Shown piece by piece: positions 3,628 through 25,654 of a stretch of DNA of 25,654 bases. This DNA comes from a virus. Position 1 is the stretch's first letter, and each line of letters begins with the position of its first letter. Location of the stretch: the IMG/VR virus record IMGVR_UViG_3300015168_000004, positions 1 through 25,654 of that record. The stretch is one strand, 5' to 3'. Both the position numbers and the translations under genes were made by a program. The notes below the pieces were generated by a model, which saw only the letters and a program-made list of their open reading frames with translations, searched no databases and had not been told where the DNA came from.

Positions 3628-4398
3628 TCAATCTGTGATGACGTGACTCGCAACCGTAGACATACGTTCAGCAGGCCCAAGCGTTTCGAACTGTTGTCGG
3701 CTCATGACTGGCTTTCCGCCACTCATTCCGCCTGACCCGCCCGCACCGCCTTTGCTACCAGTGCCACCGGCGCCAGTCCCTTTAAGGATATTCGCCTTGC
3801 CCTGATACTGCCCGACAATCACTTCCAATGCTTCGTCAAACGATGCCGGTTGACCCGGATTCGTCGGCGAGAAAATGTCATTGCCATTCAACTTTGCAAC
3901 AACCTTTCCGTCAACCATTTGGAAGTGACGACCGAACGTTGCTTGAAGCATGTCCCGTGGTACGTGTTCGGCAATTTTCGTCTTGATGAATTCACTATTT
4001 GCGAATGCGTTTCCGAGCGTAACGTCTTGAAGTTGTAACTTCAATTGTCCGTTTTCATCAACAAACGGCTTGTACTTTTCTTCGGTAGCCTTGATTGCTT
4101 CCAAGCGAACCGTTTCCAGTTTGCCAGCGTCAATCACGTCTTTTCCGGTCAAGTCCTTGACAGTCTGAAGCGCTCTCTTTACTTCGGTAGGATTCAAACC
4201 TGCGAATTCCTTTACAAGCAATTCTGCAGCTTCTTTACCTTCACGAAACGTTTTCGCTTCACCCATCACGCGCCCAACTGTGTCAAACGACTTTTCAGCG
4301 TCAAACGCAATTTCCGTACCGTCAGTCTTCACAAACACAGGCAAGTCATCTTTAATTACGATCTTACCAGCGTCATCAAGCTTCAATTTCCAAACCAT
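3628..4398 (-). CDS. Scaffolding-like protein
   Basis: 256 residues from the chosen ATG at 4398 (MVWKLKLDDAGK), which has AAAGGTGA at good spacing; upstream ATG (4404) and GTG (4422) starts are possible but poorly spaced. The N-terminus has the 'LDDAGKIVIKDDLPVFV.TDGTEI' pattern common to phage scaffold-like proteins, followed by a long charged, helical, coiled-coil-prone middle (residues ~35-130). A Gly-rich linker (residues ~208-228) precedes a short C-terminal helix, which may be the coat-binding element. Position between portal and coat gene is the standard scaffold location. Function is inferred from composition and position. Confidence 0.8.
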   Translation of the reverse strand: MVWKLKLDDAGKIVIKDDLPVFVKTDGTEIAFDAEKSFDTVGRVMGEAKTFREGKEAAELLVKEFAGLNPTEVKRALQTVKDLTGKDVIDAGKLETVRLEAIKATEEKYKPFVDENGQLKLQLQDVTLGNAFANSEFIKTKIAEHVPRDMLQATFGRHFQMVDGKVVAKLNGNDIFSPTNPGQPASFDEALEVIVGQYQGKANILKGTGAGGTGSKGGAGGSGGMSGGKPVMSRQQFETLGPAERMSTVASHVITD

Positions 4399-4436
4399 CG
4401 TCATCACCTTTGCGGCATCCACCGCGACACTTTTAG

Positions 4437-4470
4437 GGCATCAGCCCCGACACACCCCTAGGCATCAGCC
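4437..4470. repeat. 10-bp direct repeat in the portal-scaffold spacer
   Basis: GGCATCAGCC occurs at 4437-4446 and 4461-4470 in the ~100-bp noncoding gap between portal and scaffold. On the minus strand the second copy forms a short GGGC-TGAT-GCCC hairpin followed by TAAAA. It might be a weak mRNA structure or processing signal; no function is demonstrable. Confidence 0.4.
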
Positions 4471-4497
4471 ATTGGAGCAATTAAGCGAGATACTACA

Positions 4498-5964
4498 TTA
4501 TTTCGAGCCAGTAGGTAGATTATTTTGCGGGCCTACCGGGTTTCTTGGCGCAACAGCAGCAAGGACTGTTGCATTTGCGAGCGCTGCAGCTTGATTCTCT
4601 ACTTTGTCAGCGTCAATCTTCGTCTTTTCGTCTTTCCAAGTAACTCCGGGGTTAAGGTTCCATCGACGCTGCAATTCATTGTAAGTAGATTCACGCGACA
4701 ACAAACCATCATCAGGCAAAGCGACAAGTAATTGATTAAGCGCATCGTCCATAGCTTCAGCGCCAAACTCATTAAATAATTTAAGCGTTCCGCCACCTGA
4801 CGTAATACGAATCCATTTCGCCATCATATCAAGAGCTATGATTAGCGAATCTTGCAACGCCTGAGTAACACGTTGAAGCGCACAGGTGCCCACAGATGCG
4901 TCATCGTTGATTTCAGTTGCAGTAGCAGGCGCGTCACGGAATACAAGCAATTCGGCGCCGCTTTGGCGCATTTCATCTTTCAAATCGTCAAGTGATGTTT
5001 TGCCAGCTTCAATAGACTTGCCGGTATGTTCTGTATATGACAATTTGGCATCAGCAGGAATACGAACCGCAACGTTACCTGAAATAGTAAGTTCAAACTG
5101 TGTGTCATCAGTAGCAACACCGAGAATAGGAACTCTTGCGAAATGCAAAAGGTTATCTTGGTCACTCTGTGATTGCCAATGTTTAATATTCAAATATGCC
5201 AGTTCAATAAGCGGCGGCTTACTAAGCATGAAGCCTAAAAACTCACCATATACCGGAACAAACGGAACGAAATCAATTGACGTAGTACCTTGACTAATTT
5301 GAACCCATTGACGAAACGGGTTTTCACGCCAAATAGACCATTGACCAATTCCGATTACTTTAATCTGACGAATCTTATTAGTTGAAAAACCATCAGTACC
5401 TTTTTCTTCTACAGTTTCATAGAAACGAACCTGAGTCAAGGTCGGTTTTCCATTCATCATTTCAACGATCCAACCAAGCATATCGGTTGGCATCACCTTA
5501 GCGAAATAAGGACGAACACCTGCAGCCTTTTCTGCCGCCTGAGTATTTGCAATACCGTCACGCACAGGGGCATCGACCAAGATACCGCCCATGCCGTAAC
5601 CAAGGGCCGTAGCTAGCATGTCAGCGCTGAATTCTGCAATGCTGCGACCCATCATGTCGATATCGTCAAGCCACGGCAAAAGCTGTGAAGGAATGTCCTT
5701 GTTTAACGTCACAGGACGACTAAACGGCTTTGCAGCAAGCGTAGTTACAGTACGCGAGTACGCTGGAAATAACGTAGAGGCGTTCAGACGTTTTGAATAG
5801 TTGTCCTGCGTTTCCTTAGGCCACTTCGGCAGATGCCGAACGCCTGCAACCCGCATTGCTTTAGTCCCGCCCAATAGATCACCAGCAATGCCCCAAGCTT
5901 CCGACATTCCAGCAACAGCCATAGACGCTACCGCAACTGGATTTAAAGTGAATTGAGGTGCCAT
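4498..5964 (-). CDS. Portal protein, DUF4055 family
   Basis: 488 residues. The pattern matches DUF4055 portal proteins: an N-terminal helical part with YSKRLNASTLFPAYSRTVTTL and AAKPFSRPVTL, then the LATALGYGMGGILVDAP segment (~residues 115-133). A central beta region with VPFVPVYGEFLGFM follows, then the helical stem with LIELAYLNIKHWQSQSDQDN. The C-terminus is Ala-rich. The dodecameric portal forms the DNA channel at one capsid vertex and binds the terminase. The start ATG has TAGGA upstream that overlaps the TerL stop, indicating a shared transcript. Length is normal for the family. Confidence 0.88.
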   Translation of the reverse strand: MAPQFTLNPVAVASMAVAGMSEAWGIAGDLLGGTKAMRVAGVRHLPKWPKETQDNYSKRLNASTLFPAYSRTVTTLAAKPFSRPVTLNKDIPSQLLPWLDDIDMMGRSIAEFSADMLATALGYGMGGILVDAPVRDGIANTQAAEKAAGVRPYFAKVMPTDMLGWIVEMMNGKPTLTQVRFYETVEEKGTDGFSTNKIRQIKVIGIGQWSIWRENPFRQWVQISQGTTSIDFVPFVPVYGEFLGFMLSKPPLIELAYLNIKHWQSQSDQDNLLHFARVPILGVATDDTQFELTISGNVAVRIPADAKLSYTEHTGKSIEAGKTSLDDLKDEMRQSGAELLVFRDAPATATEINDDASVGTCALQRVTQALQDSLIIALDMMAKWIRITSGGGTLKLFNEFGAEAMDDALNQLLVALPDDGLLSRESTYNELQRRWNLNPGVTWKDEKTKIDADKVENQAAALANATVLAAVAPRNPVGPQNNLPTGSK

Positions 5965-7274: not shown

Positions 7275-7677
7275 GATCGGCGCCAACGGCATAAGTTACT
7301 GAAGGAGGCATTTCGTGTACTTCAGCACCTGACGTATCGGGCTTTTCAATCCATCCGCTGACTTCTGCAAGCAATTTCATTGCCTTAATACGCTCATCTT
7401 TAGGGCCTTCGTTTGTCCATTGCCAAATACGAATTGCGGCAGCTTCTTTTGTGGGCATGAAAGCTGATGCGCCCTCTTTCGTGCCTAGAAGTTTATTCGT
7501 AATTTCGAGTATCTTAGGATCGTTAGGCCATTCCGCAGCTACAAACGCAGTTACCCCCATGCGTTCGGTGCCAAATACTGCTATCGCAGCATCCATAGGC
7601 TTCAAAGGATTACGCAACAATTCACCTGCGAATTGTTCGCGCTGCGCATCCGTGAATTGAAAATCTACCGTTGCCAT
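7255..7677 (-). CDS. terS: Terminase small subunit (DNA recognition), putative
   Basis: 140 residues from ATG 7677 (MATVDFQFTDAQREQF). It is helical, with an N-terminal helix-turn-helix-like segment (residues ~5-45) and a C-terminal part MKLLAEVSGWIEKPDT like the end of many small terminases. Assignment rests mainly on overlap with terL. A longer frame to 7731 would translate through the terminator and is rejected. A -10-like TATACT at 7687-7692 directly behind the terminator might start a nearly leaderless late transcript, but its -35 is poor. No good ribosome binding site is seen. Confidence 0.75.
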   Translation of the reverse strand: MATVDFQFTDAQREQFAGELLRNPLKPMDAAIAVFGTERMGVTAFVAAEWPNDPKILEITNKLLGTKEGASAFMPTKEAAAIRIWQWTNEGPKDERIKAMKLLAEVSGWIEKPDTSGAEVHEMPPSVTYAVGADHDKAPA

Positions 7678-7693
7678 AATGGCGGCAGTATAA

Positions 7694-7725
7694 ATGAAAA
7701 AGGGCCGCACGAATGCGGCCCTTTT
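7694..7725 (-). terminator. Strong Rho-independent terminator ending the lysis operon
   Basis: A perfect 12-bp stem (7698-7709 with 7714-7725, AAAAGGGCCGCA) with a 4-nt loop that reads TTCG on the minus strand, followed by TTTTTCATTT. It separates the lysis genes from the packaging genes. Confidence 0.92.
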
Positions 7726-7742
7726 ACACAACGGTAAATCGT

Positions 7743-7967
7743 TCAGGGAGTCGGCGTAGGCGTCGAGGGAGTCGGCGTGTTTGCCGTCACTGCCGCCGCA
7801 AGCGACGTAGCGTGTGCAGCGATATCGTCCTGAAGCGCCTTCAGGGCAACCGGATCGGTGCCAGCAGCCGCGATCAGAGCGGGAATGCCCTTAATCAGCG
7901 TAACAGCCGAGTCGATAACGGTGTCTTCAGCAGCGACAGAAGCTTGAAGGTCAGAAAGTGCATTCAT
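7743..7967 (-). CDS. Small helical hypothetical protein with Pro/Thr tail
   Basis: 74 residues from ATG 7967 (MNALSDLQASVAAEDTVIDS), with AAAGGAA 5-8 nt upstream; an adjacent in-frame ATG at 7970 is an alternative. It contains two amphipathic Ala-rich helices and a low-complexity C-terminus of PTPSTPTPTP type. Similar small proteins occur in phages and prophages near lysis and tail genes; I know no function for them. It is the last gene before the lysis terminator. Confidence 0.7.
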   Translation of the reverse strand: MNALSDLQASVAAEDTVIDSAVTLIKGIPALIAAAGTDPVALKALQDDIAAHATSLAAAVTANTPTPSTPTPTP

Positions 7968-8056
7968 CATATTCCTTTGGTTGTGAAGTACGAGGTGAAG
8001 AAGGGTGAGAATAGCGGTTTTGGCTTTCATGTCAATGACCCTATAGAAAGCAGGTG

Positions 8057-8571: not shown

Positions 8572-8915
8572 TTCGTTACCTCGGTAGTTGTACCTGTATC
8601 GGTTGATGTAGTTACTTCAGTAGTACTAGCAGGAGTAATAGTTTTAACGACTGTGCCAGAAACTACCGTAGGAGGATTTGACGCCATAGCTATTGTAGTC
8701 ATTTGAGCATCTTTACTAGCAGAGTCAGTATTCTTTCCGATAAAAAAGAATACGACAGCCGTTACCAATGTAAATAACGTTTGCTTAATATCGGCATCGA
8801 CATGAAAATCAGATTTAAGCCCCGGAAGAAAAAGTACACCTGCAAACATAAGTAGAAGCGCACCGGCAATTGCGGCTTGCACAATAGGGCTTAGTTTATT
8901 CTGTGCGGGGTCCAT
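8568..8915 (-). CDS. Holin candidate, two transmembrane segments
   Basis: 115 residues. TM1 is at ~10-32 (VQAAIAGALLLMFAGVLFL) and TM2 at ~44-60 (TLFTLVTAVVFFFIGKNTDS). These are followed by a soluble Thr/Val-rich tail. The 'VVFFFIGKNTDSASKDAQ' end of TM2 is common in phage inner-membrane proteins next to endolysins. It lies 10 nt downstream of the GH19 endolysin and overlaps the lipoprotein gene. Size and topology suit a class II holin, but the unusually long Thr-rich tail leaves doubt. Confidence 0.65.
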   Translation of the reverse strand: MDPAQNKLSPIVQAAIAGALLLMFAGVLFLPGLKSDFHVDADIKQTLFTLVTAVVFFFIGKNTDSASKDAQMTTIAMASNPPTVVSGTVVKTITPASTTEVTTSTDTGTTTEVTK

Positions 8916-8925
8916 TTTATTCCAA

Positions 8926-9474
8926 TTAAGTAATTACATTAAGTGCAAGTTTCGCGCGTGACCAACGCAATTGCCTATCAGAAAAACCGTTTACACCGCC
9001 ATTTATACGTTTAGTCAACCCTAGAAAATCGTTCAAATCTGCAAAATTATTGCAGCGTTTGAATTTCCAAAAAGCACCCGAACTACGGCATGCATTCGAT
9101 ATATCATCAAGTAATTCAGGATTATTAATTAAGTCTAACCCCATTACGTTACCGATCAGCCAATAATTGTATCTGCCGGTAATTTGAATTGGCCCGCGGC
9201 CTGCAAAACGTTTGCCGTCACCTGTAAGTTTGTTTCCAAGCCTAGTTGCTGAGTCGCTAGGCGGTTCATACGCTAATTGCGCTGCTGTCGGACCCCACAA
9301 TTCATGGAACCATTGCAATCCGCCCGATTCGTGCCCCAATTGCGCCAAATATGCGGCCTGTCGTACAGGTGTATTAATATCAAACTCGACCATTGTCGCA
9401 GTTAGATCAAATGCATATTTCTGTGCAAGCGCTAACGTTGCGCCTGTACAAGTGGCAATAAGTTCAGGTGTCAC
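8926..9474 (-). CDS. Endolysin, glycoside hydrolase family 19 (chitinase-like)
   Basis: 182 residues. The family 19 core is visible: AAYLAQLGHESGGLQWFHE with catalytic Glu49 and probable second Glu58, then FAGRGPIQITGRYNYW (~90-105) and the C-terminal TKRINGGVNGFSDRQ. Family members in phages cleave the peptidoglycan glycan chain. No signal peptide or TM anchor is seen, so export depends on a holin. The start is GTG at 9474, overlapping the stop of the upstream membrane-protein gene (GTGA). Confidence 0.9.
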   Translation of the reverse strand: MTPELIATCTGATLALAQKYAFDLTATMVEFDINTPVRQAAYLAQLGHESGGLQWFHELWGPTAAQLAYEPPSDSATRLGNKLTGDGKRFAGRGPIQITGRYNYWLIGNVMGLDLINNPELLDDISNACRSSGAFWKFKRCNNFADLNDFLGLTKRINGGVNGFSDRQLRWSRAKLALNVIT

Positions 9475-9842
9475 TTATTGCCCCGTTGTTGGCTTTTCAA
9501 CGTACTTTCAATATCGACCATTCTTGCAGTCAATGCGGTTATCTGTGCGTATTGGGACGACAACTTATAATCGTGTTCAAGGTCTTTCAAATCAGCTTTA
9601 TTCTGAGTGCTTGTAATTGTGTCAAGCTTTGAATTCATCTGAACTGTATTAGCTTGAAGCGATATAAGTTTTTCACCTTGCGACAACTGGCCGTAATACA
9701 TTGATGCGGCATTGGCAGCGAAAATGCCTAACGCTGTCACGATACCCCAAAGCGGTATTACTCGTGACACGCGAATTACGTCGCTATGATCAGTCTGCCG
9801 GTGCGGAAGCATCGTCGAAGTGTCTTCGAAATCATCGCTCAT
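9471..9842 (-). CDS. Membrane protein with coiled coil, lysis region
   Basis: 123 residues from ATG 9842 (MSDDFEDTSTMLPHRQTD). There is one TM helix at ~28-48 (VIPLWGIVTALGIFAANAAS), then a charged helical region predicted as coiled coil (residues ~55-120). This topology (N-in, periplasmic coiled coil) is like that of some i-spanins and of small lysis-region membrane proteins. A longer frame up to 9968 would run through a terminator and is not used. It is the first gene of the lysis run and overlaps the endolysin start. Confidence 0.7.
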   Translation of the reverse strand: MSDDFEDTSTMLPHRQTDHSDVIRVSRVIPLWGIVTALGIFAANAASMYYGQLSQGEKLISLQANTVQMNSKLDTITSTQNKADLKDLEHDYKLSSQYAQITALTARMVDIESTLKSQQRGNK

Positions 9843-9855
9843 GTCAAAAGCCCGG

Positions 9856-9878
9856 AAAAAGAGCCCGCCGAAGCGGGC
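9856..9878 (-). terminator. Rho-independent terminator, innermost of three
   Basis: A 6-bp GC stem (GCCCGC at 9863-9868, GCGGGC at 9873-9878) with a TTCG tetraloop on the minus strand, closed by C-G, followed by TCTTTTT. It lies only 14 nt upstream of the first lysis gene start. Confidence 0.85.
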
Positions 9879-9920
9879 GAATGGCATGGCAACTGCCGGG
9901 GTCGAGTGTAGCGCATAGGC

Positions 9921-9958
9921 AAAGAAATGCGGGCTAGGGATTGACACCCCTAGCCCGC
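9921..9958 (-). terminator. Rho-independent terminator, middle of three
   Basis: An 11-bp perfect stem (9929-9939 with 9948-9958, GCGGGCTAGGG), an 8-nt loop, and ATTTCTTT downstream on the minus strand. Confidence 0.8.
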
Positions 9959-9960
9959 CT

Positions 9961-10020
9961 TTACGCACCCTCTACAGCCATCAACCAACACCACCCATCA
10001 AAGCGATGCGATCTTACCAT
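9961..10020 (-). CDS. Possible 19-residue peptide between two terminators
   Basis: An ATG at 10018-10020 opens a 19-codon frame (MVRSHRFDGWCWLMAVEGA) that ends with TAA at 9961-9963, three bases before the middle terminator stem. It fills the space between two hairpins almost exactly. Two Trp, one Cys and a downstream terminator recall a leader peptide. There is no clear ribosome binding site, and chance is a fair alternative. Confidence 0.25.
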   Translation of the reverse strand: MVRSHRFDGWCWLMAVEGA

Positions 10021-10021
10021 G

Positions 10022-10054
10022 AAAAAGGCCCTACAGGGGTCACCTGTAGGGCCT
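10022..10054 (-). terminator. Strong Rho-independent terminator, outer of three
   Basis: A perfect 12-bp stem (10026-10037 with 10043-10054, AGGCCCTACAGG), a 5-nt loop, and TTTTTC on the minus strand. It ends the transcript of the 226-residue gene at 10074-10754. Confidence 0.92.
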
Positions 10055-10073
10055 CAGGTCGAGTCAAAGCCGA

Positions 10074-10754
10074 TTAGGCAATGCGACCCACTGCTGCACC
10101 AGCAATGCCCTTGTAGGCGTCGCCGAACGGTGCGCCGTCCGCAATGGCGCGAATGCCGAACTTGCGGTCTTGAATCTTCGGGTACACGTCAGCGCCCTTA
10201 CGATTCTTGACCATCGGCTTGCTCGTGTCATCACGCGAATAGCGAAGCGTTGCGCTCGCAACGGTCGAAGCGTATTGCTTGACCGGATTCGGCTTGTCAG
10301 TCGTTGCAGGAATGAAGAATGCTTGACCGACTTCAAGTGCGCTGAACGGATACACTTCAGGACGTGCACCGAAATTGCCGCCGACACGCTTAGCTTCCGG
10401 CAGAGCAAACGACACGATTGCAAACGTAGGCTTCACAGCAGCAACTGCGGGTGCAGCGGCGACTGCAGGCGCAGCACCAAACGGCGATGCGGCAGCGGTA
10501 TCGGCCGGATGATCGGCAAGATACTGCGCACCGGCGGTCGAAACGCGAACGGCAGGGCCTGCCGGCGTTGCGTACTGAGTATCGGGGTTGACTTCGACAA
10601 GCCCCAATGCAGCCAGCTTGGCAGCTTCTGTGGCATCGGCGTTCATGTAGAACGGCGTAACAGCAGTTGCGGATGCGATCATCGCCAGTAGAACGCGATT
10701 CACGGTCGGTGCAGCAGGTGCTGCGGTTTCGGTCTTCTTAGGCTTAGTTGCCAT
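10074..10754 (-). CDS. Hypothetical phage protein with Ala/Pro-rich linker
   Basis: 226 residues. Layout: a basic Lys/Ala/Pro-rich N-terminus (MATKPKKTETAAPAAP), a helical domain (~20-85) with NADATEAAKLAALGLVEVNP, which might be a winged-helix-like fold, an Ala/Pro linker (~88-110), and a C-terminal domain (~110-226) with the YPFSALEVGQAFFIP motif. The last motif recurs in small phage proteins of unknown function. It has its own near-consensus promoter, AAGGA ribosome binding site and strong terminator, which suggests a well-expressed single-gene unit. A DNA-binding role is possible because of the basic tail, but unproven. Confidence 0.75.
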   Translation of the reverse strand: MATKPKKTETAAPAAPTVNRVLLAMIASATAVTPFYMNADATEAAKLAALGLVEVNPDTQYATPAGPAVRVSTAGAQYLADHPADTAAASPFGAAPAVAAAPAVAAVKPTFAIVSFALPEAKRVGGNFGARPEVYPFSALEVGQAFFIPATTDKPNPVKQYASTVASATLRYSRDDTSKPMVKNRKGADVYPKIQDRKFGIRAIADGAPFGDAYKGIAGAAVGRIA

Positions 10755-10785
10755 GATAAATTTTCCTTATGATGAGTTGATGAAG

Positions 10786-10799
10786 TGTCAAAATTGACA
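10786..10799. promoter_or_regulatory. Operator-like palindrome at a promoter start site
   Basis: TGTCAA-AA-TTGACA is an inverted repeat with perfect 6-bp arms, directly downstream of the -10 box at 10805-10810. It would cover the transcription start of the 226-residue gene. Overlap with the expected +1 makes it a candidate repressor site. Confidence 0.45.
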
Positions 10800-10804
10800 G
10801 ACGA

Positions 10805-10833
10805 ACTTTAATAGTTTACGTCAGCGCTGTCAA
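10805..10833 (-). promoter_or_regulatory. Sigma70-type promoter (TTGACA-17-TAAAGT)
   Basis: The -35 TTGACA (10828-10833) matches consensus in all six bases, the spacer is 17 bp and the -10 is TAAAGT (10805-10810). It starts 7 bp after the stop of the 65-residue gene and drives the gene at 10074-10754. Confidence 0.85.
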
Positions 10834-10840
10834 GCGATTT

Positions 10841-11038
10841 TCAGTTTGTTACACCTTTGGTCGCGTCACCCGCAGCGGCAGGCGCCAAACGAGCAATTTC
10901 TGCCCTGTGATAATCGACCTGATGAGTCCACAGCGCTAGGCTACGCTCTGCGTCGTATAAGTCCTTTTCGTGAGCTTCAATTTCATTCTTTGCGCGTTGC
11001 TGCACTGACAGCTTACCAAACCAACCCCATTTAAACAT
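10841..11038 (-). CDS. Small phage protein, helical
   Basis: 65 residues: MFKWGWFGKLSVQQRAKNEI, then a charged helix (KDLYDAERSLALWTHQVDYH) and a short flexible tail. Short 'MFKWG(W/F)FGKLSVQ' proteins with a following coiled-coil helix recur in phage early regions; function unknown. The ribosome binding site AAGGGG lies 8 nt before the ATG. It is the last gene of a five-gene run and is followed at once by the next promoter. Confidence 0.75.
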   Translation of the reverse strand: MFKWGWFGKLSVQQRAKNEIEAHEKDLYDAERSLALWTHQVDYHRAEIARLAPAAAGDATKGVTN

Positions 11039-11039
11039 T

Positions 11040-11252
11040 TCAATACCCCTTAGGTAGTTTGTAAATCAATTCACTCGGTCGCGAATCATCATAGACCAAC
11101 CAAATTTCTTGGTGATCACCTTTTGTCAACAAAACAGGTTCGTCATCGCGATAGAACAAGGCTTCCAGATGACACATGATTTCGGAAATTGTGCGTTGTT
11201 TCCCCACAGCAGCGTCACAGTAGCCCGACGCGATCAAAATTGCCTTGCTCAT
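11040..11252 (-). CDS. Small hypothetical protein
   Basis: 70 residues, MSKAILIASGYCDAAVGKQR at the N-terminus, then mixed alpha/beta sequence with DEPVLLTKGDHQEIWLVYDD. It has a good ribosome binding site (AAAAGGG). The ATG overlaps the stop of the upstream gene (ATGA) and the gene ends 2 nt before the next start. Unrecognised. Confidence 0.7.
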   Translation of the reverse strand: MSKAILIASGYCDAAVGKQRTISEIMCHLEALFYRDDEPVLLTKGDHQEIWLVYDDSRPSELIYKLPKGY

Positions 11253-11449
11253 GATTCAACCCTTTTAAGTTGCGAACAAACACCCATCTTTTCTACAAAA
11301 ATACGATGAAAGTTGCAATACGGATTTTTACCGCGCATGACTGAGTTTGGACAACGCGCGCAGCAATCAACACGTTCTTGCTTGGTGACGTAGCCAGAAT
11401 CCTTGTATCGACCCCAAGCCTGTCCTGAGTGTTGAAACGGTTGCGTCAT
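11249..11449 (-). CDS. Small Cys-rich protein, probable zinc binder
   Basis: 66 residues from ATG 11449 (MTQPFQHSGQAWGRY), with AAAGGGG 5-6 nt upstream; an upstream start at 11476 is less likely. Five Cys and one His are grouped as VDCCARCPNS...YCNFHRIF...GVC, the pattern of a structural zinc site. Small phage proteins with this 'CxxC...CxxH...C' layout are frequent in early regions and are uncharacterised. Both ends overlap neighbours by 4 nt. Confidence 0.7.
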   Translation of the reverse strand: MTQPFQHSGQAWGRYKDSGYVTKQERVDCCARCPNSVMRGKNPYCNFHRIFVEKMGVCSQLKRVES

Positions 11450-11625
11450 TGCAACCCCTTTAACATATCTTCCCATCGATCAATAGGAATTTCCATTACT
11501 GATTTATCGACAGGAAAACGCGATGCCAATTCCTGTCTAACCTTTTCTGAAGGCGTAGCGTTCAGATTGATATCTAACGGTTCAATTTTGACTGAACCGA
11601 TGTAGAAAGGCTTATCGTTCGTCAT
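11446..11625 (-). CDS. Small hypothetical protein
   Basis: 59 residues from ATG 11625 (MTNDKPFYIGSVKIEPLDIN); it ends RWEDMLKGLQ. No motif is recognised. The ATG lies inside the 3' end of the upstream gene (14-bp overlap) and no strong ribosome binding site is visible, so translation is probably coupled. Its own stop overlaps the Cys-rich gene. Confidence 0.6.
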   Translation of the reverse strand: MTNDKPFYIGSVKIEPLDINLNATPSEKVRQELASRFPVDKSVMEIPIDRWEDMLKGLQ

Positions 11626-11812
11626 GATTAAACGACGCAAAAATTTGCGTTTGTTCAGTTTGAATGCGCGAAATCATATCGCGTTCGCTTTCTATCATCG
11701 GTGCAAGCACTCCGCGACCCTTGGCAGCATTAAGCGCATTCTTGTAGCTGTCAGACCAAACGGACATAACTTTTCGGCCAGTAGCATCGTAAACATGAAA
11801 AGTTTGGAACAT
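11612..11812 (-). CDS. Small hypothetical protein, first gene of its operon
   Basis: 66 residues: a compact beta-turn N-terminus (MFQTFHVYDATGRKVMSVWS), a helix (DSYKNALNAAKGRG), and an acidic C-terminal helix. 'V-x-D-x-x-G-x-K-V-x-x-V-x-S' followed by 'A-x-x-A-A' is a form seen in small phage proteins without known role. It follows a near-perfect promoter with a 32-nt leader containing AGAGA as a weak ribosome binding site. Confidence 0.7.
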   Translation of the reverse strand: MFQTFHVYDATGRKVMSVWSDSYKNALNAAKGRGVLAPMIESERDMISRIQTEQTQIFASFNHDER

Positions 11813-11844
11813 GATTTAAATCTCTGTGGGTAGTTGATGGTTAG

Positions 11845-11873
11845 ACTATACGACAAGAGAAACGATAAGTCAA
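11845..11873 (-). promoter_or_regulatory. Sigma70-type promoter (TTGACT-17-TATAGT)
   Basis: The -35 TTGACT (11868-11873) overlaps the last codons of the TOPRIM gene; the spacer is 17 bp; the -10 TATAGT is at 11845-11850. It drives the five small genes from 11812 to 10841. Confidence 0.88.
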
Positions 11874-12787
11874 GCGCCGTCGCGAAGATTTTTCAAATAT
11901 TGTGTAACGTCTTCCCAATTATCGGCAGCATCTTCAATTAGTTTACGGTTATCTTGTTCTTCGTCATGTAACGATTGCCATTCTGCAACGTCAAGAACGC
12001 TTGTGATATGACGTTCTAGAATGTCGTTGATGACTTCAGGCGGCATACTGTCGAGTTCCCATGACGATTCGCCGAACTTTTCCGCGTAGTCAGCGAACCG
12101 ACTATCTGTTTCCTTCGCAGGATTCTCTGGCGGATCGTATTCCTCGATTTGATCCATGTTCAATGCCACTCGGATGAAATCAAGCGGCACGCCGGAAAAC
12201 ATTTGTAAGCGTTCCCGGTTGTCTCGTGTCATGTCGATTCCGCTAGGATCATGATCACCAAGGTGATATATCACAATTCGCTCATGATTACCACGATGCA
12301 AGGACTGAAGACGCTTTCCTGCAACATAAAGTTCTGATTGCGATGCGTAGCCACGGCAAGGGAAGTACGGTACACGCCACTTGTCACAGGATCGCGCAAC
12401 TACACCCGACAGTGCATCCTTTTCAACCCAAACTTCGCAATAAGTTTCGTTGTTACGCCAAAGATTTTCTGCGTACTGACCAACCATTGCTTGAATAAAT
12501 TCCTGCGGGTCTGAATAGTCAGGAATCGAGCGAAGCCAACGGGTGCGGTCTTCTATCAAGTCCCAATCAATCAAACCAGCAAGCCGCGCAAGATTGATTA
12601 CGCTACCAAGTTTCTTATAGTTAGTTACAGTATTCTTGATGTAATCTCGCGCAACGAACTGATAGTAAAGCTGTCTAAGCGTAAGGCTATAGCCTTTTGC
12701 AAGATACTCGTTAGCTATCGCGTTAGCTTGATTGATAATCTTGTGTGATGAAGCATAAAACGACTGTTCAATGAATTTTTCAATCAT
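11870..12787 (-). CDS. TOPRIM protein resembling Spo11/topoisomerase VI subunit A
   Basis: 305 residues. The N-terminal part has a winged-helix-like segment with SLTLRQLYYQFVARDY. Its YY (41-42) lies where Spo11/TopoVI-A proteins carry the DNA-cleaving tyrosine in '(T)xRxxYY'. The TOPRIM domain follows: Glu122 in CEVWVEKDALSGVV, then Asp178 and Asp180 in IYHLGDHDPSGIDM, the DxD metal site. These are the acids that bind Mg2+ in the family. At 305 residues it is shorter than typical TopoVI-A (about 350-390), and no TopoVI-B ATPase gene is nearby. It could be a DNA nicking/cleaving enzyme or a non-cleaving TOPRIM relative. A nested promoter lies just upstream. Confidence 0.75.
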   Translation of the reverse strand: MIEKFIEQSFYASSHKIINQANAIANEYLAKGYSLTLRQLYYQFVARDYIKNTVTNYKKLGSVINLARLAGLIDWDLIEDRTRWLRSIPDYSDPQEFIQAMVGQYAENLWRNNETYCEVWVEKDALSGVVARSCDKWRVPYFPCRGYASQSELYVAGKRLQSLHRGNHERIVIYHLGDHDPSGIDMTRDNRERLQMFSGVPLDFIRVALNMDQIEEYDPPENPAKETDSRFADYAEKFGESSWELDSMPPEVINDILERHITSVLDVAEWQSLHDEEQDNRKLIEDAADNWEDVTQYLKNLRDGA

Positions 12788-12800
12788 GATTTGACCAATG

Positions 12801-12835
12801 AAAAAGGGGCAAGACCTAGTTTAGTCTTGCCCCTT
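12801..12835 (-). terminator. Rho-independent terminator with a promoter nested in it
   Basis: A 12-bp stem (12804-12815 with 12824-12835, AAGGGGCAAGAC), an 8-nt loop, and TTTTTC on the minus strand. It ends the ten-gene run that begins at 15000. The loop coincides with the -10 box of the next promoter. Confidence 0.88.
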
Positions 12836-12847
12836 AGCACTTGTCAA
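12818..12847 (-). promoter_or_regulatory. Promoter (TTGACA-18-TAAACT) overlapping the terminator
   Basis: The -35 TTGACA (12842-12847) is perfect; the spacer is 18 bp; the -10 TAAACT (12818-12823) lies in the terminator loop. Transcription would start inside the distal stem arm, so RNA made here cannot fold the hairpin and passes into the TOPRIM gene. Confidence 0.65.
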
Positions 12848-12852
12848 GCGGC

Positions 12853-13326
12853 TTAGCTCAAATATTCTTTGATAGTGTCTGCAGCCTCGCGCCAAGTCCT
12901 GCAAATCCTATAGACGTAGCAATTGTCGTTGCAATGCCGCTCGAAATCGTGCTGTTCGTCCGACTGTCTGCCGATAGTCGTTTTCATTTCAATATAAAGC
13001 CCACAGTATGAGACATGCTGCGCATTCCCCCAACGCTTTGGCACAGGTAGAAAAATATCCGCAACACCGCGCCTTACGCCTTCAGCCTTCATCAAAGCAG
13101 CGGTCTTTGCGTCACGATTACCGCCGTTTGGAATTGCATGCAACCATTCAAGCACAGGTACAGGTTTTGTTATTGTGATACTAACAAGCCCGAGTCCAGC
13201 ACGACTATAAGCATCCATATCGTCAGCGATTGCGAAGCCGTAGCGTTGCGCCATAGCTGCCCAAGCGAAGACCGCTTTCTGTTCGCCCGATTCGCTGTGT
13301 TTTTTCGATAGATCGTCTGGATTCAT
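12853..13326 (-). CDS. VRR-NUC domain nuclease
   Basis: 157 residues from ATG 13326 (MNPDDLSKKHSESGEQKAVF). VRR-NUC features: GEQKAVFAWAA near the N-terminus, AIPNGGNRDAKTAALMKAEG (~80-100), RRGVADIFLPVP with the metal-binding Asp, and GLYIEMKTTIGRQSDEQHDF with the E-x-K catalytic pair. The family cuts branched or flapped DNA, or acts in phage replication and restriction-like roles. The frame extends to 13422, but that extension would overlap the upstream gene more and reads less like protein. No clear ribosome binding site is present, so coupling with the upstream gene is likely. Confidence 0.85.
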   Translation of the reverse strand: MNPDDLSKKHSESGEQKAVFAWAAMAQRYGFAIADDMDAYSRAGLGLVSITITKPVPVLEWLHAIPNGGNRDAKTAALMKAEGVRRGVADIFLPVPKRWGNAQHVSYCGLYIEMKTTIGRQSDEQHDFERHCNDNCYVYRICRTWREAADTIKEYLS

Positions 13327-15068: not shown

Positions 15069-16445
15069 CTAATTGCCGTCGAATGACAACATCATGCGAC
15101 CGTCACCCAACATATGCGCTTGACAGTCAACCGCTGCGTTATCGCAATTCTTAATCCATGTAGCCATGATATCGGGCTTCCAACCGTTGAACCAATCGCC
15201 GTGCGCTGAATAGCCCGCAGGTAGCGTTTTGTCATACGCATCCGACGAAAGACGCCAACGCAGCGTTGCGTGCGATTCAACGATTGGATACAGAATGTTG
15301 TAACTGATTTCAGGAACAGGAACCGGATGCGTTGCAGGGCAAGCGCCTTTCGTTGGATAGTTCATATGACTTTTATGGTCAGGACTATCGAGGTTCACTC
15401 CATCCCAACACTGCGGAAAACTTACAACCATCCAAAGAGTGTTGCCGGTAACACAATCGGGAATTTGCCAAGCCCATGCGCCAACAATGTTTGCTGTCGT
15501 GTTATCCATGCAACCAAACTTCGTCGGCCCCCATTCTTCAGGTGCTTTACGCGTCGGGTCGCCAGCAATCATGCGCAAACCTTGCGGAAATGCCTTTACG
15601 GCCGAAGCCGCAATGCCATTATAGCCTGTCTTGTAGTACGTAATCAATGATTGTGGAACAATCGCACTATTATCTTTAGTGTCGATCATTGTAGGCACCC
15701 AATAACCTGTGCGGTTAATCGTTGCGCCGCGGCAAGTGCTGTTACCAGTAGTTGCAATACTTAGTGCTGTAGAATAGGCATTTAAACCTGTGTTACCAAA
15801 GAACGTATGAAGATGAGGCACACCCGGCTGACCCGGATACACAATAGGGTCATCAAACGCCATATGCGAGGGTGAGCATACAGACCTAAATGCGCCAATA
15901 CCATCAGGTGTGGGTTTTGCAATATCAGTCGTTTGTGCCAGCATATCAGACCCGCGACCAACTGCAGGTTTCATCAATGTAGTTACGTCAACTGTAATTC
16001 CACCATGCATTAGCGGCGGTACGACAACGACAGGAGGCACAACGACAGGCGGAATCGGATCGGGTGTCGTACAGGCACCTACAGGCGCTTTAGCTGGCAA
16101 CCAAGCGCCTGTAACCCAAACGTTCGAACTTGACAACGCATAACTTTGCGTTTGAGTCCAAGTGCCCACAGTTGGGGCAACGCACGTAGCTGATTTCGTA
16201 TTATTTGGCGGTTGAACACCGACAACAGTTCGTGCTGTCGTTTGACGACACGAGTAAGGCGGATTCGCTAGCGTATTTGCGTATGCAGCAGCAGCATCAA
16301 GCGTAGTAGTGCCTGCGGGTAGTTTGATAGGTGTGGCGCCTTTCAAACATGACGGCGGACCAACAGTATCTGCTGCAAATACATATGCAGTAAATAGCAT
16401 AAGTACGAACAAAACGAATAGTTGTCGCTTTGAAAAAGTTTTCAT
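15069..16445 (-). CDS. Secreted DUF1996-domain protein
   Basis: 458 residues. A Sec signal peptide (MKTFSKRQLFVLFVLMLFTA, cleavage near YVFAA) is followed by an N-terminal domain with paired Cys (~25-130), a Pro/Val linker (PIPPVVVPPVVVVPP), and a DUF1996 domain (~185-450). The DUF1996 motifs are DDPIVYPGQPGVPHLHTFFG, TGYWVPTMID, FPQCWDGVNLDSPDHKSHMN, CPATHPVPVPEISY and SAHGDWFNGWKPDI. The conserved His/Asp set suggests a metal-dependent or carbohydrate-active enzyme, but the family has no established activity. The ribosome binding site is AAGGAAA. The gene sits between the integron-like insert and a new promoter; it is large and exported, unlike its neighbours, so probably a transferred accessory gene. 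Confidence 0.85.
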   Translation of the reverse strand: MKTFSKRQLFVLFVLMLFTAYVFAADTVGPPSCLKGATPIKLPAGTTTLDAAAAYANTLANPPYSCRQTTARTVVGVQPPNNTKSATCVAPTVGTWTQTQSYALSSSNVWVTGAWLPAKAPVGACTTPDPIPPVVVPPVVVVPPLMHGGITVDVTTLMKPAVGRGSDMLAQTTDIAKPTPDGIGAFRSVCSPSHMAFDDPIVYPGQPGVPHLHTFFGNTGLNAYSTALSIATTGNSTCRGATINRTGYWVPTMIDTKDNSAIVPQSLITYYKTGYNGIAASAVKAFPQGLRMIAGDPTRKAPEEWGPTKFGCMDNTTANIVGAWAWQIPDCVTGNTLWMVVSFPQCWDGVNLDSPDHKSHMNYPTKGACPATHPVPVPEISYNILYPIVESHATLRWRLSSDAYDKTLPAGYSAHGDWFNGWKPDIMATWIKNCDNAAVDCQAHMLGDGRMMLSFDGN

Positions 16446-16519
16446 AATCGTTTCCTTGGTTACCTTTAGAAATTGCTACTGATGGTGCAAATGTGGCTAT
16501 GGGTGGCAAGGGCTGCCGT

Positions 16520-16795
16520 CTATATCACGTTAGGCGTCTTTCCAAGTGCAAAGCAGCGGCGCCCGAATTGCTTCCAGTCGAAATCACTGTCATGCGTGCC
16601 TTGAAGCCAGCAATCGTTATAGATCGCGAAAAGCACTTCATCGGTCGGCATGGAAGCGGCGACTAACCTACCGTGCTGAGTGCAAAAGTTTCCGATGGTC
16701 TTCCGGCGTCCGCACTGCACCAAATTCCCGTCGCGCATCGTTGCATCGGCTTGGCAGCGATCTTCTGTCTTGGCGTCTACGAATCGTCGCTTCAT
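16520..16795 (-). CDS. Cassette-borne small Cys/His protein
   Basis: 91 residues from ATG 16795 (MKRRFVDAKTEDRCQADATM), which has a strong ribosome binding site (AAGGAG, 5 nt). An in-frame ATG at 16876 (27 residues longer, with GAGGA nearby) is a second choice. DRCQAD...VQCGRRKTIGNFCTQHGRL is a compact C...C...CxxH zinc-knuckle pattern. GC is clearly higher than in the phage genes around. The last codons (TPNVI) read through the GTTAGGC core box into flanking DNA, so the native C-terminus was replaced at the boundary. The gene runs against the usual attC polarity. Confidence 0.72.
   Translation of the reverse strand: MKRRFVDAKTEDRCQADATMRDGNLVQCGRRKTIGNFCTQHGRLVAASMPTDEVLFAIYNDCWLQGTHDSDFDWKQFGRRCFALGKTPNVI
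16529..16535 (+). other. Left boundary of cassette insert: integron core site
   Basis: GTTAGGC marks the point where cassette DNA begins (expected crossover between G16529 and T16530). The ~15 bases before it (TGCCGTCTATATCAC) resemble the L' part of the complete attC at 16900-16957 (GCCGCTTACCTCTAC). The site may therefore be the right half of a degenerate attC rather than a chance core box. Confidence 0.55.
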
Positions 16796-16899
16796 TTCAT
16801 CTCCTTCAAGTCGGCACGGTTTGTGGCAATACGCCAGCACGCTCGTGCATTCGCCCCTGGTCTTGCAGCCGCTCATAGTCCTCTGCCTCAGTTCACCAC

Positions 16900-16957
16900 G
16901 CCTAACACGGCGGTCAAGCGGACGGGCTAAAGCCCGCCGCTTACCTCTACGTTAGGC
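16900..16957 (+). other. Complete integron attC recombination site
   Basis: 58 bp. Core boxes are GCCTAAC (16900-16906) and GTTAGGC (16951-16957). Inner arms are GGTCAAGCGGACGGGC and GCCCGCCGCTTACC around a TAAA tip. The left arm has an extra C and an extra A compared with the right arm. An unpaired base at this C position is the extrahelical base that fixes attC polarity, as in aadA-type sites. Read this way the plus strand is the attC top strand. The site separates two cassettes. Confidence 0.88.
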
Positions 16958-16966
16958 GTCAAGTTT

Positions 16967-17143
16967 CTATGCCGCGGGCTCTTCCACCGGAACGCGGTTC
17001 CCCGTCACTTGAAGCCACTCGCCGGAGTCCGCATCGACCACGAAGTATTCTTCGCACGCCGCGAGTTCTTCGGCCTTGTTCTGATCGTTGGTGCCCTCCA
17101 CATTGCCGTCGAAAGTGTTCGTGATGTAGAAGCGAAATTTCAT
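16967..17143 (-). CDS. Cassette-borne 58-residue hypothetical protein
   Basis: ATG 17143 opens MKFRFYITNTFDGNVEGTND, ending GEWLQVTGNRVPVEEPAA. It has a beta-strand start, an acidic helix with QNKAEELAACEEYF, then VVDADSGEWLQV. It is a small acidic soluble protein of no known family, typical in size for integron cassette genes. The stop lies 10 nt from the complete attC and the start 36 nt from the truncated attC, so it occupies one full cassette. GC and codon use (GCC, GTG, GGC, CTC) differ from the phage genes. It is antisense to the usual cassette gene direction. Confidence 0.75.
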   Translation of the reverse strand: MKFRFYITNTFDGNVEGTNDQNKAEELAACEEYFVVDADSGEWLQVTGNRVPVEEPAA

Positions 17144-17178
17144 GTTGTTTCTCAGTCGTGGCGTCTATCTGGGCAGAC

Positions 17179-17202
17179 GCCTAACCCTTCCTTGAAGCGG
17201 AC
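17179..17202 (+). other. Truncated attC (left half) at right boundary of insert
   Basis: GCCTAACCC...AAGCGGAC over 24 nt: the R'' core box, a spacer and the L'' arm, in the same polarity as the complete site. The tip and right half are missing. It abuts the stop codon of the phage-side gene (17203-17205), so the break or fusion point is exactly there. Confidence 0.7.
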
Positions 17203-17577
17203 CTACGGCATCACCACCGATCCACCAAGCAATTCCCAATGCGTATGGCTAGCGTAACCACCGCGACCGGAACCACTACCGCGAGTAGTCCAAGTACGCC
17301 ATTGAAACGTCACTGTGACGTAATGCCCGTATTGGTCATACGCAAGTCCTTGCAACGATGGGTCTTTACCAGCGTATTGAACACCATTAATCCAAATACC
17401 GAACGTTCCATACGTAGCACTAGCATAGACAAGAATGTCTGCTTCTGGCGTAGCGTCATTAGCTACAGCAGTACAAACGCGCGTATCAGTACAAGCCGAA
17501 TCTTCAAGCGTAATAGTTGCTGCGCTTGCGCAAAGGCTCATCATCGCCATTACAGCGAACATCAACAGCTTTTTCAT
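17203..17577 (-). CDS. Small secreted protein
   Basis: 124 residues from ATG 17577, with AAAAGGA 7 nt upstream. Signal peptide MKKLLMFAVMAMMSLCASAA; predicted cleavage after ASA. The mature part has two Cys (DSACTDTRVC), probably a disulfide, followed by beta-rich, Gly/Tyr/Trp-containing sequence (YGTFGIWINGVQYAG, YVTVTFQWRTWTTRG). It ends GGSVVMP directly at the truncated attC, so the original C-terminus may be changed. No family is recognised; exported accessory protein. Confidence 0.7.
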   Translation of the reverse strand: MKKLLMFAVMAMMSLCASAATITLEDSACTDTRVCTAVANDATPEADILVYASATYGTFGIWINGVQYAGKDPSLQGLAYDQYGHYVTVTFQWRTWTTRGSGSGRGGYASHTHWELLGGSVVMP

Positions 17578-25059: not shown

Positions 25060-25136
25060 GGGCCGCTAACTCAATTGGTCAGAGTAGCGAACTCATAATT
25101 CGTTAGTTGCAGGTTCGAACCCTGCGCGGCCTACCA
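25060..25136 (+). tRNA. tRNA with CAU anticodon, probably Ile2 (AUA) rather than Met
   Basis: A full cloverleaf with encoded CCA: acceptor GGGCCGC/GCGGCCT (one G-U), D arm ACTC/GAGT, anticodon stem GCGAA/TTCGT with loop CTCATAA, variable TAGTT, and T arm GCAGG/CCTGC with TTCGAAC. CAU can be elongator Met or lysidine-modified Ile2. The C4-G69 and C5-G68 pairs agree with E. coli tRNA-Ile2 and not with elongator tRNA-Met (U4, A5). The first base follows the upstream stop directly, so it must be processed from the mRNA. Confidence 0.93.
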
Positions 25137-25152
25137 AATTAAGGAAATTAAA

Positions 25153-25654
25153 ATGCTTGCGTATCACAATGATCCTGCTGTAAAAGCTAAATACATTGCT
25201 CGCTTTGCAGCACATAGGGAAGCTGACGAAGTAATTCAAGGGACTGGATTCGAAAACGGCAGAGGCTGTTTTGTGGGTTGTACTTTGAATGAATATAATT
25301 ATTCAAAGTTTCAGGATGAGCTTGCATGGCCTGAATGGTTGGCTAATCTAGCAGACACTATTTTTGAAGGCTTACCTAAATCAGAAGCTGCACAATTCGG
25401 AACTGATATTCTTTCATCAGTTTCTATTGGAAGTAATCTCGAATTTGTTAAAACACCCTTTCTTATTTCAATTGAAATACGAAATCTTGCAAGGCTTGAA
25501 GGAAATTCCGAACCTTACGCTGAAGAATGCAGAAAAGCCATTCAAGGCGTAATCGACTGGCTTAAAGCTGGTATTGATTATGAGTCGGCGCGGTCGGCGG
25601 CGTGGTCGGCGGGGGCGGCGGCGCGGTCGGCGCGGTCGGCGGCGTGGTCGGCGC
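25153..25654 (+). CDS. Phage protein with Ala-Ser-Trp/Arg repeats, 3' end missing
   Basis: 167 residues visible from ATG 25153, with AAGGAAA 7 nt upstream. The N-terminal domain (1-142) has AKYIARFAAHREADEVIQGT, NGRGCFVGCTLNEYN, WPEWLANLADTIFEGLP and RKAIQGVIDWLKAGIDYE. It then changes abruptly into SARSAAWSAGAAARSARSAA and on to the window edge. Proteins with this N-terminal domain and a tail of SA(R/W/E)-type units occur in many phages, with tail length varying between relatives; function unknown. The repeat DNA is extremely G+C-rich compared with the AT-rich start of the same gene. Confidence 0.82.
   Translation, partial: MLAYHNDPAVKAKYIARFAAHREADEVIQGTGFENGRGCFVGCTLNEYNYSKFQDELAWPEWLANLADTIFEGLPKSEAAQFGTDILSSVSIGSNLEFVKTPFLISIEIRNLARLEGNSEPYAEECRKAIQGVIDWLKAGIDYESARSAAWSAGAAARSARSAAWSA
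25583..25654 (+). repeat. G/C-rich short tandem repeat coding for SAR/SAW units
   Basis: Built from TCGGCG plus GCGTGG/CGG blocks, e.g. TCGGCGGCGTGG occurs three times (25592-25603 and later copies at ~25634-25651, the last incomplete). Each 9- or 12-nt unit encodes S-A-R or S-A-A-W. The array continues beyond the window. Confidence 0.8.

Follow-up and report, generated by a model that had tools for sequence, protein, structure and literature searches.

A candidate integron array in a phage genome

The stretch of DNA analyzed here (hereafter, the window) is an IMG/VR virus record of 25,654 bases. It carries an attI-like site (16512..16535, + strand) whose R box is GTTAGGC at 16529-16535. Reading of the core boxes places cassette 1 (16530..16951, attC polarity +) between the G|TT of this site and the G|TT of a complete attC site, attC1 (16900..16957, + strand). 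The gene of cassette 1 (16520..16876, − strand) encodes up to 118 amino acids and is reversed relative to attC. Its product matches phrog_36569 (E 2e-12) and P33 of phage phiL7 (41% over 46 amino acids), and its final codons (TPNVI) read through the attI R box. A leader with a Shine-Dalgarno-like AGAGGA (16877..16899, − strand) lies between attC1 and the start codon; among 151 loci, exact copies of the leader motif GTGAACNGAGGCAGAGGACTATG occur only in the window and in the phage contig L100. The gene of cassette 2 (16967..17143, − strand), also reversed relative to attC, encodes 58 amino acids and has homologs in viral contigs, Xanthomonas plasmids and the Microcystis phage Me-ZS1. Next along the window comes a broken site, attC2 (17179..17202, + strand), in which only R′′ and L′′ can be read and which is cut at the stop codon (17203-17205) of the next phage gene.

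On the other side of the array, a DUF1996 gene (15069..16445, − strand; PF09362, E 1e-47) starts 84 bases past the attI core, where relatives carry intI. The DUF1996 protein has a signal-like N-terminus and relatives in 11 other viral contigs. The GC content of the array is 0.55-0.61 vs 0.39-0.50 in the flanks, and four of the seven exact copies of GTTAGGC in the window fall within the 0.66 kb of the array, where about 2.4 would be expected window-wide. We found neither intI nor any other integrase gene in the window contig, which is possibly a fragment. Near the contig end lie a tRNA gene (25060-25133; Rfam, 65 bits) and an open reading frame (25153-25653) that runs off the end and encodes a repetitive tail rich in Ala, Ser, Trp and Arg.

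A preliminary description of this DNA had already reported the complete attC with its diagnostic extra C, the left core, the half site, the higher GC content and the missing integrase, and all of these hold up. It overlooked the reversed orientation of the genes, which is the main point. Taken together, the sequence features read as a reduced array composed of attI, a reversed cassette, attC, a second reversed cassette and half an attC, with intI absent. Such an array would need an IntI supplied in trans or would be a relic; intI may also lie elsewhere in the genome. By the usual classification, a CALIN has at least two attCs without intI; of the two attCs in the window, one is intact and the other a half site. 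In a complete integron intI adjoins attI, an arrangement that is lacking in the window contig and is found in phages such as those represented by L149 and L184; attI itself is present in the window as the best-scoring predicted site; and cassette genes run along the attC direction and are read from an integron promoter, whereas both window genes lie on the − strand.

The window carries an attC site and a phage-type attI-like site

The sequence at 16900-16957, GCCTAACACGGCGGTCAAGCGGACGGGCTAAAGCCCGCCGCTTACCTCTACGTTAGGC, fits the R′′/L′′/L′/R′ fold with GTT and AAC cores and the attC profile, and its top strand carries an extrahelical C and A (G and T on the bottom strand). As folded DNA, the bottom strand reaches −23.8 kcal/mol (z −5.7), a value equaled by none of 200 shuffled sequences. 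A pattern derived from the R′′ and L boxes of the window retrieved 13 bacterial contigs (from Rhodanobacter, Frateuria, Rhizobacter, Methylibium, Nitrosomonas and others), and an alignment of 19 attC sites from these contigs, which excludes the window site, was used to build a covariance model, R1. On the window, R1 reports 16900-16957 with 59.9 bits and E 2.5e-12, on the + strand only, as a model tuned to this attC type through training sites gathered with the window-derived pattern; attC2 is too short to be called. R1 discriminates attC from other DNA, as a screen of 1.2 Mb from 98 further viral and plasmid loci yielded no attC, with a top match of E 1.3. Rfam models found no attC in the window, where a tRNA was the sole entry above the gathering score. 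When the window attC was used as a query against phage records, it gave weak partial matches only, the top one in Shewanella phage M16-3. Judged by sequence and predicted fold, 16900-16957 is a genuine attC of + polarity.

What had been described as a left core site is better read as an attI-like site. When scored with a weight matrix built from nine other phage attI sites, the − strand site with its AAC at 16531 reaches 15.1, the best of 51,270 window positions (runner-up 12.8), and its strand and placement are correct. Its coding-strand reading, from 16531 to 16512, is AAC|GTGATATAGACGGCAGC. Across about 80 viral loci with attCs, just eight AAC sites score 14 or higher, and all eight lie no more than 0.9 kb from an attC. 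At the locus L299, an attI-like site next to an array of nine attCs is immediately followed by what remains of an intI gene (7645-8042, − strand; 82 amino acids, 50% identity). This order suggests that intI can be lost, and the remnant was perhaps caught midway.

P0001 of the window has no relative in the viral contigs or plasmids searched. TerL relatives are at most 59% identical and show no empty site, and almost no genes are common to the window phage and the array-bearing loci analyzed here. The preliminary description had proposed that related phages carrying these genes without core boxes would refute its integron reading. Such relatives were found for P0002 only (L093-L095, loci with no attC), and they are not decisive because genes may move into and out of cassettes. 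The families of both cassette genes also occur without attC.

Cassette genes are mostly reversed in the phage arrays scanned

In normal integron cassettes, the gene and its attC share one direction. In the window, both genes run against the attC polarity, on the − strand, and homologs of the − strand translations back this strand assignment. A strict attC pattern applied to viral contigs identified one further contig, L100, whose parent G001 carries portal, capsid and tape measure genes according to our reading of its long open reading frames. Its six attCs are all on the + strand inside one 3.1 kb stretch, and family matches place the genes between them (DUF1643/phrog_3230, phrog_37496 and phrog_887) on the − strand.

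A looser pattern applied to IMG/VR yielded 35 viral contigs with 1 to 15 attCs apiece. Gene orientation was scored with a self-trained codon model that was validated against HMM matches; an earlier hexamer gene caller was dropped after mis-calling antisense open reading frames. In this first scan, 112 genes between consecutive attCs run opposite to attC vs one in the same direction, and all 31 scorable phage contigs (integrase set included) are mostly inverted. The same scoring of bacterial arrays gives 17 genes in the same direction vs two opposite. A replicate scan, which relied on a different attC pattern, on R1 site calls and on a gene model trained before those loci were obtained, gave 117 opposite vs three same, with 35 contigs inverted and two standard, of which one came from an isolate genome. 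Pooling both scans, 229 of 233 scored phage-array genes are reversed, a count drawn from metagenomic contigs, many of them fragments, that represent some attC types only and are partly non-independent (a few overlaps or near-copies), many having no detectable mutual homology.

The contig L118 carries two arrays (220-2161 and 8646-12926) of opposite polarity, with + attCs over − genes in one case and − attCs over + genes in the other. The orientation rule therefore follows the genes and not the genome, because both arrays are reversed relative to their own genes.

At L149 (~3830-5790, − strand), a group II intron with a reverse transcriptase gene (Rfam matches to the intron at 5455-5623 and 3834-3903) is located at the end of an attC-like hairpin in a phage array and is co-directional with the phage genes; group IIC-attC introns in bacteria likewise sit at the ends of attC hairpins. 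A cassette between attCs in L142 (1801-2243) recurs, at 83% identity, as a segment of L130 (1533-1975) that has no called attC nearby, a pair that may bear on cassette formation or decay.

Phage integron integrases and their attI sites

Of 36 records, three contain a match above the cut-off of the integron integrase model TIGR02249, namely those from which L138, L149 and L145 derive, the last being bacterial in type. A search with an IntI alignment extended the set to 37 viral contigs. When these loci are oriented with intI on the + strand, 68 of 69 attC matches lie on the − strand, and the remaining one duplicates a site already in the tally, called weakly on its second strand. This relative polarity of intI and attC is the canonical one. 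The genes between attC and intI, by comparison, lie on the intI strand in the phage contigs. In all 19 scorable phage loci, four of them near-identical and with L172 and L187 from isolate genomes set aside, the gene nearest upstream runs in the same direction as intI, whereas it diverges from intI in 40 of 46 scorable bacterial loci.

The catalytic residues R-K-H-R-H-Y are intact in every full-length phage IntI except that of L189, and the integron-type insert region is recognizable. In a tree of IntI proteins, the phage sequences form several clades, some apart from the bacterial proteins and one close to them, with uncertain deep branching; the reversed arrangement occurs in at least four of these phage clades. 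The attI site lies upstream of the intI start, where each clade shows conserved sequence beginning at an AAC core and unrelated sequence beyond it. A terminase gene follows intI within about 1 kb in the contigs of L149, L167, L168 and L169, and terminase is present on 20 of 47 contigs (that of L145 excluded). In a phage record (KX853513, Virus Rctr41k; L278), the gene annotated as 'xerD' at 4680-5678 encodes an integron integrase relative, with no attC of R1 type around it. The first 50 kb of Pseudoalteromonas phage H101 contained no R1 match.

These results bear on the two origins proposed in the preliminary description, namely that a phage captured a bacterial array or that phages collect genes by attC recombination. 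Accidental capture of a piece of a bacterial array, with sites useless to the phage, was the reading we considered first, and we set it aside on gene orientation. It would account for a short, partly broken array without intI, bacterial-type integrons are known in prophages such as those of Vibrio anguillarum and Shewanella, and the attC type of the window is common in beta- and gammaproteobacterial integrons. However, captured arrays such as those of L145 and Shewanella phage M16-3 keep gene and attC in one direction, whereas the genes are reversed in the window and in 66 other phage contigs. Capture is therefore unlikely, because the genes run against attC, because they resemble those of phages and plasmids, and because the left core matches phage attI. 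The alternative, gene collection by attC recombination, is better supported.

Signs of cassette exchange and structural constraint

Pairs of related loci reveal abrupt changes in similarity near attI. Identity between L184 and L197 is 96% across the 200 bases toward intI vs 28% on the other side (35% for shuffled sequence), and the corresponding values are 94% and 42% for L184 and L195, 84% and 41% for L194 and L196, and 84% and 24% for L169 and L171. The contrast is absent from some wider pairs, for example L184 and L183. Where it is present, similarity breaks off at the attI core, the place where IntI is known to cleave. Homologous cassettes ending in attC also recur in different neighborhoods. 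Such a pattern is the signature of cassette exchange, with the enzyme reaction deduced from the sequences. The cargo includes C5, N6/N4, D12 and (weakly) Dam methyltransferases and a Mom family protein, and predicted functions of this kind support a counter-defense role.

The phage hairpins might instead be mRNA terminators, attenuators or processing sites that are not recombination sites today. They are intergenic, hold one constant orientation to transcription, and lie near stop codons and ~25-45 bases ahead of the next start. Against this reading, the AAC/GTT cores do not vary, the extrahelical C and A are conserved in 126 and 130 of 133 phage sites, respectively, the window hairpin has no run of T residues after it, and intI and attI stand at the array end, where the sequence breaks fall at the attI core. 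Among the same 133 sites, 325 cells show changes on both sides of a pair vs 80 in shuffled controls and 27-61 in slid structures; overall, 93% of cells pair, a figure inflated by the fitting of the alignment to the model. Compensatory changes of this kind indicate that phage attCs are under structural constraint. We regard a role restricted to mRNA as improbable, and hairpins may serve in both mRNA function and recombination.

A third possibility, that the loci are assembly chimeras or bacterial contigs misfiled by the automatic calls of IMG/VR (the isolate-derived L145 does hold a standard array of bacterial type, intI included), is very hard to credit given the structural genes of G001, the terminase genes on 20 of 47 other contigs, beside intI in several, and a uniform reversal in two samples that chimeras would not yield.

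A proposed phage-borne integron class with reversed cassettes

Given these findings, the array in the window is probably a reduced form of a phage-borne integron class whose cassettes are reversed, as judged from sequence comparisons. Complete members present early genes separated by attCs, then attI, then intI, in several contigs just upstream of terminase genes. Since attI, attC and the catalytic residues are present, the phage IntI would be expected to insert circular cassettes at attI via the folded bottom strand of attC, as in bacteria. An upstream early promoter reading toward intI would presumably express the flipped cassette genes and intI together. We propose that a single early transcript would favor reversed genes, given that new cassettes arrive next to intI. 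In this layout the recombinogenic bottom strand is the coding strand. Phages could thus trade short accessory genes, notably DNA modification genes that act against host restriction. More broadly, it seems probable that proteobacterial phages possess an integron system of their own, with several phage-specific IntI lineages, a dedicated attI, a pool of reversed-gene cassettes read from a phage early promoter in place of an integron promoter, and a trade between phages in accessory genes, those against restriction among them.

The phage class has its attC sequence type, IntI family and attC-intI polarity in common with the sedentary chromosomal integrons of Xanthomonadales and Burkholderiales, but differs in its phage host, in its reversed cassette genes and in an intI that is co-directional with them. 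Integrons or attC clusters have been described in 21 of 10,705 phage genomes, and five of six tested attCs from virulent phages recombine with IntI1 (Qi et al., 2023; PMC9892861). Those systems resemble the class described here in carrying attCs in phage genomes and, in some cases, methyltransferase cargo; that study describes neither reversed cassettes nor IntI clades specific to phages, and the arrays of TJE1 and Shewanella phage M16-3 have the standard gene orientation. In the 'reverse' integrons of Treponema, intI and cassettes are likewise co-directional, but intI is turned and transcribed toward attI (PMC3607928, PMC4909258), whereas phage intI runs away from attI as normal and the cassette genes are the reversed part. 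In the literature searched, with bioRxiv and most subscription journals outside its scope, we found no report of reversed cassettes or of a phage IntI class. Phage-borne integrons with reversed cassettes, often with anti-restriction genes as cargo, are apparently widespread and unreported, a novelty that we state conditionally.

The gene-orientation rule offers a simple test that can be repeated on any virome data set. Phage genomes are mosaic, and exchange among them is usually ascribed to illegitimate or homologous recombination. If our proposal is correct, a site-specific cassette system in early operons would provide a concrete and testable mechanism for the modular exchange of counter-defense genes. 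It would also alter the view of integrons as bacterial devices, account for the orphan attC sites seen in phages, and inform the long-standing question of where cassettes originate.
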